Virus record (IMG/VR): IMGVR_UViG_3300050033_000419
Span: 1-57,437 of that record
Strand: one strand, 5' to 3'
Length of the DNA: 57,437 nucleotides
Source of the DNA: a virus
Every line of letters begins with the position of its first letter. Positions within the stretch are counted from its first letter, which is position 1. The notes beneath the pieces were generated by a model, which saw nothing but the letters and a program-made list of their open reading frames with translations, made no database searches and was not told the origin of the DNA. Shown in pieces: positions 26,456-34,164 of the stretch. The position numbers were made by a program, and so were the translations under genes.

Positions 26456-27551
26456 TCGCGGCCTCGACGAGTGATTCGGCTTTCACCGCTTTCACCACCA
26501 CGCCATCCAGTTCCGCATCGAGCCGTCGTAGAGCCGCCACTATCACGGCGCCGTACTTCTCGATCAGCACTGGGATCACTTCCTCGCTCGGAGCCAACAG
26601 CACCAGGTGGCCTTCGCGGGTCACGTACCCGGCACGCAGCGGCTTGATCCAGATCGCGAACGAGTGCGAATTGATTTCCTTCTCCAGTTCGTCCTGCACC
26701 TTGCGCCATAACCTGCCAACATCCTGCACAATGTGCCCTTCCCGCTCGCGTTGTCGCATCCACGCCTCTAGTACCTGGCCCATATCCACCGGTCTCGGCC
26801 GCACTGCCTCCACAGGTTTCGCCGGCGGATCGTGGGTGTTGCGCGGCGCGCGGTCCTGCTCGCGGTTCAGCCAGTTCACGCAGAACTTCAGCATCCCGCC
26901 ACGGGTCTTACGCTGTTTCGGATTCGCGTCGAGCCAGGCCGCCATGCTGCGCAACTGCTGGGCCACGTCGACGCCCGGGTAAAGCTCCTGCCAGTTACGC
27001 GCCTGTGCCTGGGCGATCGGGAAGTGTTTACCGTCGTTCTGGGCGAGTTTGATAGCGATGGGTTCCGGCGCCGGCGGCGAGTCGCTTGGCGGCTCGGCGC
27101 TAGGAATCAATGAATCAGGAATCAATGAATCAGGAATCAATGAATCAGGAATCAATGAATCAGGGGGATTTCCACGGAAGCACAACGTTGTGATCACGTT
27201 GGATTCACCGTTAGTTATCGGTGATGATGGAGGGGGTGGAATAACACCTTTCTTTTCCGTGTGATGAGGGCTCTGGTGTTTGGCGAAGTTGAGCACCGAA
27301 ATGTAGTTTTCCCCACCCAGGGAGTAGCGATGGATGAACTTCAGTTTTTCAAGTTCCGAGAGAAAACCGTCGATGTCCAGATTTTCACGGTAAGGGAAGA
27401 TCTCCGCCCGAAGGCGAAGCGGGCGGTCCTCGAGTCTTCCATCCCGGTCCGCCAAGCACCACAAACCCTGGAAGAGTAGGGTTAACAATGGGTCCCGTGT
27501 GCCCAGAACTTCGTTCTTAAACGTACCCGGTTTGATATTTCTCGCCCGCAT
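26448..27551 (-). CDS. Replication initiator (lambda O-like) with DnaA-N-like C-terminus
   Basis: A 367-aa protein from ATG 27551: MRARNIKPGTFKNEVLGTRD, LFQGLWCLADRDGRLEDRPL and LNFAKHQSPHHTEKKG are the phage replisome-organiser N-terminus. A hinge with a four-fold repeat of the residues PDSLI (residues about 130-150) is encoded by four 15-bp direct repeats, the likely origin iterons. The C-terminal 100 residues (LWRKVQDELEKEINSHSFAI, WIKPLRAGYVTREGHLVLLA, EEVIPVLIEKYGAVIV) resemble DnaA domain I/N, which recruits helicase. No separate helicase gene is visible, so host DnaB is probably used. Confidence 0.8.
   Translation of the reverse strand: MRARNIKPGTFKNEVLGTRDPLLTLLFQGLWCLADRDGRLEDRPLRLRAEIFPYRENLDIDGFLSELEKLKFIHRYSLGGENYISVLNFAKHQSPHHTEKKGVIPPPPSSPITNGESNVITTLCFRGNPPDSLIPDSLIPDSLIPDSLIPSAEPPSDSPPAPEPIAIKLAQNDGKHFPIAQAQARNWQELYPGVDVAQQLRSMAAWLDANPKQRKTRGGMLKFCVNWLNREQDRAPRNTHDPPAKPVEAVRPRPVDMGQVLEAWMRQREREGHIVQDVGRLWRKVQDELEKEINSHSFAIWIKPLRAGYVTREGHLVLLAPSEEVIPVLIEKYGAVIVAALRRLDAELDGVVVKAVKAESLVEAASV
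27103..27162 (-). repeat. Four 15-bp iterons, candidate replication origin
   Basis: The unit ggaatcaatgaatca occurs four times in direct, unbroken tandem, with no mismatch. Each unit contains two TGATTC-like half sites on the minus strand. They lie within the initiator gene and keep the frame, as the origin iterons do inside lambda gene O. An AT-richer flank follows toward 27190-27250. Confidence 0.75.
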
Positions 27552-28851: not shown

Positions 28852-29108
28852 CGCTTATCCTCCTGTTTGTCCCAAGGCAGGCGCGCCTGGTTGTGAGTTG
28901 GGCAATGGTCCTTGTCCTGGCCCACTTCCGTTGAGCAGCGATCGCACATCTTCCGGTCGCAGGTTCTTCCGCCGCCAAAGCCGTAATCGCACAGCTTGGT
29001 GTGTGGGCGCATGTGGCAGAAGCTGCAGGGTGCAGGCCTTGCTTGGCGTCCACGTCCGCAAGCGATCGCGAAGTCTCCGTTACCGAGGTTGACTTTTTCG
29101 CAGCTCAC
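28848..29108 (-). CDS. Zinc-finger-rich protein, 86 aa
   Basis: GTG 29108 overlaps the Gp68 stop (GTGA). CSFCHMRPHTKLCDYGFGGG then TCDRKMCDRCSTEVGQDKDH and CPTH provide at least four Cys/His pairs, a possible double zinc-binding unit like small phage RING- or LIM-type proteins. Role unknown. Confidence 0.68.
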   Translation of the reverse strand: MSCEKVNLGNGDFAIACGRGRQARPAPCSFCHMRPHTKLCDYGFGGGRTCDRKMCDRCSTEVGQDKDHCPTHNQARLPWDKQEDKR

Positions 29109-30571
29109 CCGCGGGCCCCCGCCGGATACTGGCGAACTCGGAAGCGCTCCGGCCATTCCGAAGCGTCTCCACCCTTGCGGCTCTCAAGGCCAAGAGTTGT
29201 GATTGTTTCGGTCCTCTGGCCACGCTTACCGGATGGGATTGGCGGATCGTGCTTAACAATCTGGACGACGACCGGCATCGCTCCAAGCTGTTTCACAAAA
29301 CAGGCAACCGAAGCGGCCTTGCATTGCTCGATGATTGACTCGATCCATTTAAGTTCGCAGTGGCGCGCGCCCGGACCACTCTCTCCGCCAATTACGCACC
29401 ACGAGAGTTCGCCCACAGCTGGCCTCGGGCGATCTTCGACACCGTCCTGTCCGAAACCCCGAAGTCCTTCGCGATGACCAACAATCTCTCTCCCAACGCC
29501 CGCCTCGTCCGGATCTGCGCTACGTCTGAGTTCGTCAATTTCGCCATCGAGTTTGCCACGCCCGCCTGATTGCAGGCGTGTCCAACCTTCAACACTCTCG
29601 TGGCGTGAATCTGTTGCTCTGTATACGTCGCCAGCATGAGATTGTCGGGATGGTTGTGCATCTTCTTCCCGTCTTCGTGGTTCACTGTCAATCCGGGAGG
29701 AATCGCTTTCTTGAAGTGTCTGTAAACCAACCTGTGAGCTGCTACATGAACCCGAACTCCGTTGATCATTACTCGAACTTGAAGATAATTGCCGAACGGT
29801 CTTTCCGCGCGGACGCGTTTGCAGGGACGGCTCACTACTTCCTTCTTCCATCTGTCCCATCCGCGCTTGCGTATCCGCCATATCGTTCCGTCCATCTCTA
29901 TCGCCAAATCGCCGTTCAAAACCGCTTGATAGGCGAACTCCTCGTTCCCGGTCGGTTTCATTTATCCACCTCGTCAGGTCTATTGGGCCGAGTAACGGCT
30001 CGGCGCTAATCCATCGCACCGCCGCCGGTGTTTGCAAGAGCAGCGGGATCCGCTCGTCAGCGCGCGGCTGATCTTCCACACTCACACCCAGCCACACGTT
30101 CTTGAGCGGCATCACCGGCGCGAATGGCGACATGCCGGTCACCTTGCTCATCACCGACTTGATGCGGGTGGGCAGGAGCGGATCCTGTAAGTAGGTCATC
30201 ATCCGCTCGGCCCGTTTCGTCAGGATCTGGTAGGTGTGCCAGTTCGCCACTGCCATCACAGCGAACATGCGATCGATAAACTTGTCCGGGACGCCATCGT
30301 GAAAGAGGTCGCTCATCGAGTTCACGAAGATACGTTGCGGCTTACGCCATTCGATCGGCTCGCGCAGCTTCTCTTCCACCAGCCTGATCTTCCCTGTCCA
30401 TTGCGGATGTCCGTTGGTGCTTTTTACCAGGCCTGCATAGGAGCCGCCCGGGCGGGAGTGACGGATCGCTTGGCGCTCGGCGTAGCAGTTCGCACAGCCA
30501 GGACTGACCCGCGTGCAGCCTCGCACCGCGTTCCACACCTTGTCGCACCATTCGATCTTTGAGTCTGCCAT
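29105..30571 (-). CDS. Gp37/Gp68 family protein (DUF5131) carrying an in-frame insert
   Basis: A 488-aa reading; relatives are about 300 aa. Residues 1-203 (KIEWCDKVWNAVRGCTRVSP, GCANCYAERQAI, IFVNSMSDLFHDGVPDKFID, WISAEPLLGPIDLTRWI) and the end (ELSWCVIGGESGPGARHCEL, CFVKQLGAMP) are family sequence, including the Cys cluster of this radical-SAM-like fold. The 190 residues between are not family sequence: they are the alternate-frame reading of a nested HNH gene. Start ATG 30571 follows GAGG. If the whole frame is translated, the protein carries a low-complexity insert. Confidence 0.8.
   Translation of the reverse strand: MADSKIEWCDKVWNAVRGCTRVSPGCANCYAERQAIRHSRPGGSYAGLVKSTNGHPQWTGKIRLVEEKLREPIEWRKPQRIFVNSMSDLFHDGVPDKFIDRMFAVMAVANWHTYQILTKRAERMMTYLQDPLLPTRIKSVMSKVTGMSPFAPVMPLKNVWLGVSVEDQPRADERIPLLLQTPAAVRWISAEPLLGPIDLTRWINETDRERGVRLSSGFERRFGDRDGRNDMADTQARMGQMEEGSSEPSLQTRPRGKTVRQLSSSSSNDQRSSGSCSSSQVGLQTLQESDSSRIDSEPRRREEDAQPSRQSHAGDVYRATDSRHESVEGWTRLQSGGRGKLDGEIDELRRSADPDEAGVGREIVGHREGLRGFGQDGVEDRPRPAVGELSWCVIGGESGPGARHCELKWIESIIEQCKAASVACFVKQLGAMPVVVQIVKHDPPIPSGKRGQRTETITTLGLESRKGGDASEWPERFRVRQYPAGARG
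29392..29961 (-). CDS. HNH endonuclease nested in the Gp68 gene
   Basis: A 189-aa protein in another frame of the Gp68 gene: YLQVRVMINGVRVHVAAHRL then VYRHFKKAIPPGLTVNHEDG and NHPDNLMLATYTEQQIHATR give the HNH motif, with a C-terminal helix-turn-helix (LTNSDVAQIRTRRALGERLL, DFGVSDRTVSKIARG). ATG 29961 has GAGG seven bases upstream. It begins in the last codons of the conserved left part and ends in the first codons of the right part. The insertion therefore contains nothing but the nuclease gene, and the host frame remains open right through. Confidence 0.85.
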   Translation of the reverse strand: MKPTGNEEFAYQAVLNGDLAIEMDGTIWRIRKRGWDRWKKEVVSRPCKRVRAERPFGNYLQVRVMINGVRVHVAAHRLVYRHFKKAIPPGLTVNHEDGKKMHNHPDNLMLATYTEQQIHATRVLKVGHACNQAGVANSMAKLTNSDVAQIRTRRALGERLLVIAKDFGVSDRTVSKIARGQLWANSRGA

Positions 30572-31485: not shown

Positions 31486-32811
31486 CTAAGACTCCTGCGC
31501 GAGGGAGCGCGCATATTGCGCCCCGGTCAGGCCGAACGTTGAGGCAATCGCATTCATCGCCGTGAGCTTTTGCGGCGCTCCGAGATCGCCATCCGTTTGC
31601 AATGGACAAAGCTCAGGATGAACACGCAGGAAGTAGGACTTACGAGAACCGTCCGGCTCCTGGGTTGAGTTCAAGACCTTGACCATTACGAGCGGTTCAT
31701 CGTCGTGGATCTCGGTGCGATACAGCTCGCCGAACTCGTCTTCGTGAATCCGCTCAGCCTTGCTGTCGACGAGGTAACGCGCGATTCCGTAGCGATCGAG
31801 CATCACCCGGCGGACTTCGACGTTCTCTTCCTTCTGGATGTGCTCGACGGTGATGAATTCCGGACGCATGATCACAAACTCCGGAACCATGACGCCATGC
31901 CAGAAGTGAAGGTTCTCGATGTCGGAGTCGAGCGCCGGACCGGTCGCGTTGTGCAGGCGCTTGCCGGTGGCGGCTTCTTCAACGTGAACGGTCGGCTTTG
32001 CGAACCAATAGAGGGTGTCCTCGGTCCAGTGCAACACCCACGCGCCGGCGAGGAAGGCGTGGAAGATAGGCTCGGACCATTCCTCCACTTTGGCTTTACC
32101 GAGCTGGCGCGCACCGAGATAGGTCGTTGCCAGCAGCGACGCTTCGAATCTCCACCACCACCAGCCCGGCGACTGGATACACCATGCAGCAAAGCGCTGG
32201 ATGGCTTCGTTTTCGTCCATCGCGTCCCTCGCGTCCCTCGCGGCCATCGCGTCCCTCGCGTCCATCGCGTCCCTCGCGGCCCTCGCGTCCATCGCGTCCC
32301 TCGCGTCCCTCGCGGCCATCGCGTCCCTCGCGTCCATCGCGTCCATCGCGGCCATCGCGTCCCTCGCGTCCCTCGCGGCCATCGCGTCCCTCGCGTCCAT
32401 CGCGTCCATCGCGTCCATCGCGGCCATCGCGGCCATCGCGGCCCTCGCGGCCATCGCGTCCATCGCGGCCCTCGCGTCCATCGCGTCCATCGCGGCCCTC
32501 GCGGCCATCGCGTCCCTCGCGTCCATCGCGTCCCTCGCGTCCATCGCGGCCATCGCGGCCCTCGCGTCCATCGCGCGATTTCGCTTCGCGAAATCGGAGA
32601 GCACTGCTTCCACGTAGCGCTTCAATGAAGGGTGCTGCTCCAACTTCCAATCGGCACGAAGCCGCTCGATCTTTCTCTCGACACCGAGAGCTTTCAGGTA
32701 ACGGTCGAGGTGCAGTTCCACGGCTGCTTCATCGATCACGCCTGGATAAGTGCATGCCGCGGTGTACCGTGCCAGGTCTTCGCTTGCCTTCGTCGTCGCT
32801 ATGATTGCCAT
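31486..32811 (-). CDS. DUF6745-like protein with a 40-unit A-(M/R)-(D/A) repeat
   Basis: A 441-aa protein from ATG 32811 (GAGG upstream). Residues 80-199 are 40 copies of Ala-(Met/Arg)-(Asp/Ala), predicted to be one long helix or a right-handed repeat rod. Around it are a helical N-terminus (HLDRYLKALGVERKIERLRA) and a C-terminal half that matches DUF6745: WYWFAKP-type TLYWFAKPTVHVEEA, TGKRLHNATGPALDSDIENL, LVMVKVLNSTQEPDGSRKSY, FLRVHPELCPLQ. DUF6745 genes often stand next to the gene type found at 32867-33181, as here. No biochemical role is known for the family. Confidence 0.78.
   Translation of the reverse strand: MAIIATTKASEDLARYTAACTYPGVIDEAAVELHLDRYLKALGVERKIERLRADWKLEQHPSLKRYVEAVLSDFAKRNRAMDARAAMAAMDARDAMDARDAMAARAAMDAMDARAAMDAMAARAAMAAMAAMDAMDAMDARDAMAARDARDAMAAMDAMDARDAMAARDARDAMDARAARDAMDARDAMAARDARDAMDENEAIQRFAAWCIQSPGWWWWRFEASLLATTYLGARQLGKAKVEEWSEPIFHAFLAGAWVLHWTEDTLYWFAKPTVHVEEAATGKRLHNATGPALDSDIENLHFWHGVMVPEFVIMRPEFITVEHIQKEENVEVRRVMLDRYGIARYLVDSKAERIHEDEFGELYRTEIHDDEPLVMVKVLNSTQEPDGSRKSYFLRVHPELCPLQTDGDLGAPQKLTAMNAIASTFGLTGAQYARSLAQES
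32215..32574 (-). repeat. Array of 40 nine-base units, open in all six frames
   Basis: The minus-strand unit is GCG-A(T/G)G-G(A/C)C. Seven of nine positions are identical in all 40 units; only position 5 (T or G) and position 8 (A or C) vary, and both change the amino acid. Larger repeats are visible: the unit order ARD-AMA-ARD-ARD-AM occurs at units 21-25, 28-32 and 36-40. No stop codon can be formed in any frame by these units. Confidence 0.95.
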
Positions 32812-32866: not shown

Positions 32867-33181
32867 TTAATCCCTTACGTTGCGGATCTCTTCGGGCGCA
32901 TATTCGCGTTGTCTGGTGACTTCGTAGCTTCCGGGCGCCAGGGTGATGGGCGAATGTTCTTCGTGGATGATCCGGACTCCCTCATCACCCACCCTCAGAT
33001 AGAGACCGCCCTCGATCTCCAAAACCTCGGCGGCTTGTACGTCTTCCAGGCGGTGAATATGCCCGGTCGCTTCTCCTTCGAGAATGTGCCCGCTCGCACG
33101 GTTGGTGGCCTTTTGCTCCGGCAGGCCATCGATACGCCGGATGAGTACGTCCCCTTGTCGATACAATTCCAGTTTCTTCAT
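32867..33181 (-). CDS. Conserved protein usually paired with DUF6745, 104 aa
   Basis: MKKLELYRQGDVLIRRIDGL, ILEGEATGHIHRLEDVQAAE, GLYLRVGDEGVRIIHEEHSP and SYEVTRQREYAPEEIRNVRD. Proteins of this kind, with the RQGDV start and the RQREY end, are found next to DUF6745 genes in phage and bacterial genomes. A small beta-barrel seems likely. Function unknown. Confidence 0.75.
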   Translation of the reverse strand: MKKLELYRQGDVLIRRIDGLPEQKATNRASGHILEGEATGHIHRLEDVQAAEVLEIEGGLYLRVGDEGVRIIHEEHSPITLAPGSYEVTRQREYAPEEIRNVRD

Positions 33182-33185
33182 CGGT

Positions 33186-33419
33186 TTACCCCTGCACTCG
33201 AACGTTGCTTGCGATCGGACCGCGCGGCCCAGGCTTCACATCGAACGAGACCCGCTGTTCCGGTACCAACTCCCGGTATCCGTTCGAGCAGATCGCGGTG
33301 TAGTGCACAAACACTTCTTCCCGGTTGTCATGGCGGCGGATGAAGCCGTAACCCTTGATCGCGTTGAACGAGACCACCGTGCCGATTACGGCTTCCGCTG
33401 CTGTTTCGCTTGGTTGCAT
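33186..33419 (-). CDS. Cold-shock domain protein
   Basis: A 77-aa protein: VIGTVVSFNAIKGYGFIRRH is the RNP1-type strand of the cold-shock fold (normally KGFGFI), then EEVFVHYTAI as RNP2 and QRVSFDVKPGPRGPIASNV. It binds single-stranded nucleic acid and probably acts as an RNA chaperone during infection. Confidence 0.88.
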   Translation of the reverse strand: MQPSETAAEAVIGTVVSFNAIKGYGFIRRHDNREEVFVHYTAICSNGYRELVPEQRVSFDVKPGPRGPIASNVRVQG

Positions 33420-33426
33420 GAGCTCC

Positions 33427-34164
33427 TTACGCGATGATCGGAATATCGAGCGCGAACGTCGCGAGATGACGGCGCACGGCGTTGATGGTCTCGACCTTCC
33501 ACTTGCCGCCGTCTGCTTCGAACAATCCGAGGTTCGGGGGCTGCTGATCGCTGACCGCGCGGATCCTGAAGACGAACTCCGAAGCGGGTGGAAAAACTTC
33601 CGGGAACGTGCGGATCGGAGAGAGTCCAACCCTCGGCTTCACCATCTCGTTCGAAACCATCGCTATTCCGGCCTTGATGGTGACCTTCTGCGAGATCCCG
33701 TCATCTTCATGGAGCGAGGATGCCTGCTTCTGCAAACCGGAAGCGATCCGCAACACATAGTCGCGGTCGATGGAGTTGGCGAAGTGCGCCTGAACACCGA
33801 TGATGAAGTTCTCCTGTTCGAGGTAAGTGTTGAACTTGAAGGAGTCAACCTGGACGGGTTTGGCGGTGATGAGCGCGAGACGTCGGCCCCACTCATCCGT
33901 TTCTCTGTTGATCAGCGAGACTTGGTCATAATTCACGACGTGAATCAAAACGCCATCGCCGAAATCCACTGCGGCGCCATCGACCTCTTGGCGAATAAGC
34001 TCCGCAAAGCCTTCGAGTGTGAAGACCGCAATCGGCTTCGGTTCTGGTGTTGCGGAGGGTGTGATTTCGTGAAGAACCTTCGAGCTGAATTCACGATCGC
34101 CAAACATCGTGAACCGTTCGGTCTTATCGAGCGTCAGAAGATATTCCAGAGCTGCCTTGATCAT
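33427..34164 (-). CDS. Conserved phage protein, 245 aa
   Basis: MIKAALEYLLTLDKTERFTM, the middle FKFNTYLEQENFIIGVQAHF and SIDRDYVLRIASGLQKQASS, then KVTIKAGIAMVSNEMVKPRV and SPIRTFPEVFPPASEFVFRI. This belongs to a family found in many siphophages next to the gene type at 34213-34614. It resembles DUF2303 in layout, but I cannot confirm membership. No function is known. Confidence 0.65.
   Translation of the reverse strand: MIKAALEYLLTLDKTERFTMFGDREFSSKVLHEITPSATPEPKPIAVFTLEGFAELIRQEVDGAAVDFGDGVLIHVVNYDQVSLINRETDEWGRRLALITAKPVQVDSFKFNTYLEQENFIIGVQAHFANSIDRDYVLRIASGLQKQASSLHEDDGISQKVTIKAGIAMVSNEMVKPRVGLSPIRTFPEVFPPASEFVFRIRAVSDQQPPNLGLFEADGGKWKVETINAVRRHLATFALDIPIIA

Follow-up and report, generated by a model that had tools for sequence, protein, structure and literature searches.

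Tandem arrays of three- and four-residue coding units in DUF6745 genes of uncultured phages

The locus described here lies in a tailed phage, IMG/VR record IMGVR_UViG_3300050033_000419, whose full 57,437 nucleotides are referred to as the window; terminase, portal, head and tail proteins match PHROGs. The features at and around the repeat array are as follows.

31486–32811, minus strand: DUF6745 gene, 441 amino acids from an ATG at 32811, with AGAGG about 5 bases upstream of the start; a 439-amino-acid version starting two codons downstream was used in the searches.
32575–32811, minus strand: conserved N-terminal helical domain (YTAACTYPGVIDEAAVELHLDRYLKALGVERKIERL ... VLSDFAKRNR), as judged by an alignment of 29 phage proteins and by AlphaFold2 helices predicted at high confidence.
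32215–32574, minus strand: 40-unit array GCG-A[T/G]G-G[A/C]C, read as Ala-[Met/Arg]-[Asp/Ala], residues 80–199 of the 441-amino-acid protein.
31510–31989, minus strand: stretch of the DUF6745 domain matched by Pfam PF20530, residues 273–432 of the 439-amino-acid version, with 122 bits against a curated cut-off of 27 bits and an E-value of 2.4e-35.
32867–33181, minus strand: neighboring gene of 104 amino acids (YRQGDVLI ... GHIHRL ... HEEHSPI ... RQREYAPEEIRNV), phrog_27831, a conserved partner of DUF6745.

The array consists of 40 uninterrupted 9-bp units and is in frame in the DUF6745 gene. Tandem Repeats Finder gives 40.2 copies of period 9 with a score of 507. The units occur as Met-Asp (14), Arg-Asp (12), Met-Ala (9), and Arg-Ala (5), and seven of the nine positions never vary. 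The array is open in all six frames, and one plus frame reads (Arg-Pro-Ser)n. The observation of the earlier note, which had described the 40-unit array at this position, with seven invariant positions and six open frames, is thereby confirmed. One part of it is weak: the note took higher-order copies of five units as a sign of recent slippage or recombination, and such copies exist, but the longest shared run—6 units, 62 bp of DNA—is not more than shuffled units give (p = 0.12 and 0.11 in two tests). The two variable sites are not associated with each other (p = 0.76). The 62-bp run is also the longest exact repeat inside the array and is shorter than an ordinary short read, so the array could be assembled without ambiguity.

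The array is not a one-off. A single-sequence search with the C-terminal half of the window protein found nothing in viral contigs. A scan of viral contigs for the exact DNA pattern gave the same gene in three other phages, with other lengths and orders, but would have biased the set to one codon spelling; hence, a pattern with free third bases was used next and, finally, a profile of the C-terminal domain only, which is blind to the array. The profile found 304 relatives in viral contigs, of which the best 80 loci were kept and 79 were analyzed together with the window. Of these 80, 61 feature arrays of 3-residue units A-x1-x2 (the window included), 15 feature 4-residue units x1-x2 followed by SV, QV, QL, AV, AT, or NL, and 4 have none detected—two of the latter (L180 and L232; retrieved loci carry numbers with the prefix L) being cut at a contig end. 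Arrays reach 76 units in the 3-residue class and 79 in the 4-residue class (L225, cut at a contig end). In 38 of the 79 fetched loci (L155–L233), the contig ends in or next to the array, indicating that short-read assemblies break there and that such genes are probably undercounted. An assembly artifact as the source of the arrays is, however, very unlikely, since arrays of the same design occur in dozens of independent contigs and an x1-x2-QL array occurs in gene 38 of a deposited Mycobacterium abscessus prophage, prophiGD102-1 (MW584211.1); arrays at contig ends are truncated, and individual lengths may still be wrong.

In bacteria, DUF6745 is sparse: 3 of 297 genomes in the phylum of the Acidobacteria bin and 15 of 198 in the class of a Streptomyces genome. 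Most of these loci show no array; exceptions are L133, with a 4-residue [RLSG][AD]QV array, L147, with a 4-residue array ending in AV, and the phage-like L132. A pattern scan of about 85,000 bacterial and archaeal genomes for mixed A-x-x arrays gave only five stretches. A-[R/W/S/L/M]-[D/A/E] arrays of the same design also sit in several proteins of viral contigs and one bacterial bin that show no DUF6745 match (L048 and L126; L054 and L080; L008 and L131; L082; L095), so the array type seems to have arisen in, or moved into, other genes. The third-base-free pattern in addition brought in unrelated perfect Ala-Leu-Ala repeats of other viral contigs (L023, L031, L063, L018, and L122; GCT CTG GCT in 14–17 copies, GCT CTT GCT in L018) and, on the other strand, Ser/Pro/Thr repeats, which were set aside.

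The variable sites are always two adjacent residues: x1, Arg versus mostly Leu, Met, Ile, Gln, Ser, or Trp, and x2, Asp versus Ala. In 55 arrays of 3-residue units, the mean heterozygosity per base is 0, 0, and.017 for the Ala codon,.121,.464, and.024 for x1, and.046,.462, and.061 for x2. In 14 arrays of 4-residue units, it lies at x1 base 1 (.563) and base 2 (.218) and at x2 base 2 (.458), with all other bases at.044 or less. Nonsynonymous diversity among units (piN) exceeds synonymous diversity (piS) in 67 of 69 arrays—means 0.175 versus 0.040 for 3-residue and 0.155 versus 0.012 for 4-residue units—and piS is zero in 26. The regular expressions that define arrays fix some residues in advance (Ala at unit position 1 and the closing dipeptides); the invariance of those residues is, hence, partly by construction, whereas the third-base and x1/x2 results are not. 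Most tests treat arrays as independent. Within each phage the codon third bases are nearly invariant, whereas about 30 codon spellings are found between phages. Four-fold sites in the flanks are only 32–44% identical between the window and relatives, so the shared design is not simply recent common descent of the DNA. Codon preference is excluded: the array's Ala codon makes up 99% of unit-initial Ala codons but 28% of Ala codons in the flanks of the same gene.

These data make a neutral minisatellite—a young slippage product tolerated because the unit is a multiple of three—very unlikely. Third-base invariance, block duplications, and length variation would fit it, but neutral variants should fall on third bases about as often as elsewhere, and of 118 site-by-array variants at 10% or more in 3-residue arrays, 4 are at third bases and none at the first two bases of the Ala codon. 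In addition, x2 was variable in all 55 arrays of 10 or more 3-residue units, and the same two sites vary under about 30 spellings; a neutral origin would need a mutational bias confined to these sites in every spelling. Targeted diversification, for instance by a diversity-generating retroelement or another site-specific mutator, could account for variation confined to set positions and nearly always A/C or G/T, but is highly unlikely as well: no RVT_1 (reverse transcriptase) match is found in the record, unit adenines elsewhere (position 4 in the window) do not vary, and the states follow amino acids and not bases—Arg to Leu at position 5 in some arrays, Arg to Trp or Ser at position 4 in others.

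A function of the array as RNA or DNA, or of an overlapping frame in which the variation is synonymous, is also very unlikely. In its favor, all six frames are open in the window, and in one plus frame both variable bases are silent; VIPR RNAs alternate conserved motifs with variable dinucleotides in tandem (PMC13142463). However, 26 of 62 arrays have a stop in some frame (36 of 62 are open in all six), the alternative-frame peptides change with the spelling from phage to phage, and the array is in frame with conserved domains on both sides. No Rfam family matches the region, and the array RNA folds less well than shuffles (z = +1.9). The phage-encoded VIPR vrRNA repeats likewise combine fixed and variable parts, but are YNNGG pentanucleotide units of a non-coding guide RNA, whereas the units here are 9 or 12 bases, in frame, and show codon-structured variation.

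The arrays appear to change quickly. L210 and L211 have flanks 87% identical in DNA and 94% in protein, yet the x2 codons are GAG/GCG in 16 of 16 units of one (Glu/Ala) and GAC/GCC/GTC in 24 of 24 units of the other (Asp/Ala/Val), an array-wide codon replacement between sister phages. L160 and L161 have flanks 99.3–99.7% identical and differ by 19 units inside the array, which may be real or an assembly collapse. L184 and L038, with flanks about 90% identical, have clearly different unit orders but the same spelling. Family-wide, repeated blocks are longer than shuffling gives (combined p 7.5e-13), and within-unit and next-unit associations exist in many arrays—as expected from duplication and exchange, although order is, hence, not fully random.

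The interpretation given in the earlier note is partly supported. Its reading of third-base invariance as recent expansion or homogenization holds, and the result that would have spoken against it—identical arrays in relatives with ordinary synonymous drift—was not found, since arrays of relatives differ in length, order, and spelling. A process that keeps exactly two states at each site, as the note proposed, is not supported: many relatives have three or more states at x1 (R/L/Q, R/L/S/H, R/S/I/L) and sometimes at x2, and the two-base pattern is what one-step changes among helix-compatible residues give (CGN/CTN, AGG/ATG, AGA/ATA, GAC/GCC). This pattern and the six open frames are incidental.

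The share of Arg at x1 has a mean of 0.53 (range 0.29–0.74) and that of Asp or Glu at x2 a mean of 0.57 (range 0.25–0.76), each with only about twice the variance of binomial sampling. The two shares correlate (r = 0.42, p = 0.004), and net charge per unit varies less than if they were independent; near-duplicates were removed in this analysis only, and the correlation is moderate and not corrected for relatedness. Base changes are nearly all G/T at x1 and A/C at x2, that is, Arg to Leu, Met, or Ile and Asp to Ala, although transitions are usually the commoner mutations; this points to amino-acid choice. Amphipathic patterning was tested by a Fourier scan against shuffled units, and neither an order signal nor helical periodicity appears when arrays are pooled. 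AlphaFold2 with 29 sequences yields a mean pLDDT of 84.7 and a predicted helix through most of the window's array, with a low-confidence stretch at residues 130–146 of the model. The 4-residue relative is drawn as one helix of about 190 residues, but with low confidence (pLDDT about 50), and low-complexity arrays are easily predicted as helix.

The favored reading, to which a probability of about 0.58 is assigned, is that the array is coding and forms a long, alanine-rich, roughly charge-balanced α-helical rod between the N-terminal domain and the DUF6745 domain of a phage accessory protein. In this view, the DNA array turns over quickly by duplication, deletion, and exchange between units, which resets synonymous sites so that all units in one phage share one spelling. 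Selection on the protein would keep Ala at position 1 and a mixture at x1 (Arg versus a non-acidic, mostly aliphatic residue) and at x2 (Asp versus Ala), so these two sites do not become fixed while the third bases do; unit order seems largely free. The analysis itself establishes the array family, the pattern of variable sites, the diversity at amino-acid-changing sites far above synonymous sites, the exclusion of codon bias, and the array-wide codon replacement between sister phages, whereas the recombination mechanism, the rod role, and composition rather than exact order as the thing selected are inferred. Composition alone does not obviously require two free sites.

The main rival is a recognition array, in which x1 and x2 of each unit contact a partner—a host or rival-element protein or nucleic acid—and an arms race drives their diversity, as in PRDM9 zinc fingers or TALE repeat-variable residues. 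It remains possible but is held as doubtful. Two adjacent variable residues per unit in an otherwise fixed scaffold in both the 3-residue and the 4-residue clade, piN far above piS (which a recognition role would give equally), rapid turnover, and arrays that are near-universal in the phage proteins but present in few of the bacterial DUF6745 loci examined speak for it. However, a 3- or 4-residue unit is far smaller than any modular recognition unit known to the authors, no periodicity would put the variable residues on one helix face, the shares of Arg and Asp are held near one half, which a target-specific code would not need, no partner is known, and no structure with a partner exists. An extended form of this reading—DUF6745 proteins as a phage-wide class of programmable helical rods whose two-residue code per unit is rewritten by fast recombination of the DNA array in an arms race with a host or rival-element target—is not excluded but is considered unlikely.

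PRDM9 is the human gene with the highest value of this kind, with a mean between-repeat dN/dS of 2.7 (PMC5120217), and likewise features tandem units with diversity concentrated at a few residues. The DUF6745 arrays share with this regime the homogenization of synonymous sites within an array but not between arrays and the excess of nonsynonymous over synonymous diversity among units. PRDM9 units, however, comprise 28 residues that each fold and bind DNA, whereas the units here have 3–4 residues, no known partner, and a different fold and lineage. TALE repeats also carry two adjacent variable residues per otherwise fixed unit, but are helical hairpins of 33–35 residues reading DNA, whereas the units here are predicted to form a long helix. 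A published TALE-inspired screen tested only units of 30–43 residues and removed composite and low-complexity repeats (PMC5472282), so it would not have seen these arrays. Borg amino-acid tandem repeats are fast-evolving in-frame repeats in genes of mobile elements (PMC9879509). Borg units are perfect, mostly disordered, and scattered over many genes, whereas the units here vary at x1 and x2 in every array of 10 or more units, are predicted helical, and sit mainly in one gene family. Alanine-rich helices such as the winter flounder hyperactive antifreeze (4ke2) and single α-helix domains share a long Ala-rich or charge-balanced helix, but the fold match is non-significant (E 1.2), and unit and composition differ.

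The family amounts to a large natural experiment on how tandem coding arrays evolve: dozens of arrays share one amino-acid design but not one spelling, so homogenization and selection can be separated site by site. By the simple measure used here, the excess of amino-acid-changing over silent variation is at least as strong as in the textbook case of PRDM9. The gene appears common in uncultured phages and has a conserved partner gene but no known function. Searches found no solved relative of DUF6745, no significant PDB fold match, only two other DUF6745 proteins in the viral fold library, and no paper naming DUF6745 in the literature library searched.

The 104-amino-acid RQGDV protein (phrog_27831), with conserved His motifs, was found next to DUF6745 in 38 of 38 phage loci with enough upstream DNA and in 17 loci from bacterial genomes—a two-gene module of as yet unknown function; in a few phages, it lies downstream. 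Defense-system profiles do not match the array protein or its partner. Just upstream of the module, the reading frame at 33186–33629 (minus strand) carries a cold-shock (CspE-like) domain in its C-terminal half. The gene at 29105–30565 (minus strand) encodes a DUF5131 protein (E 4.5e-78) that also matches the PADLOC candidate models PDC-M41B and PDC-M30B (E 2e-64). A perfect 15-bp tandem repeat, 4.2 copies of AGGAATCAATGAATC, lies at 27102–27164. The first and last about 280 bases of the record overlap almost perfectly—exactly for the last 127 bases, with a mismatch beyond—so the genome may be complete and circularly permuted although listed as linear.
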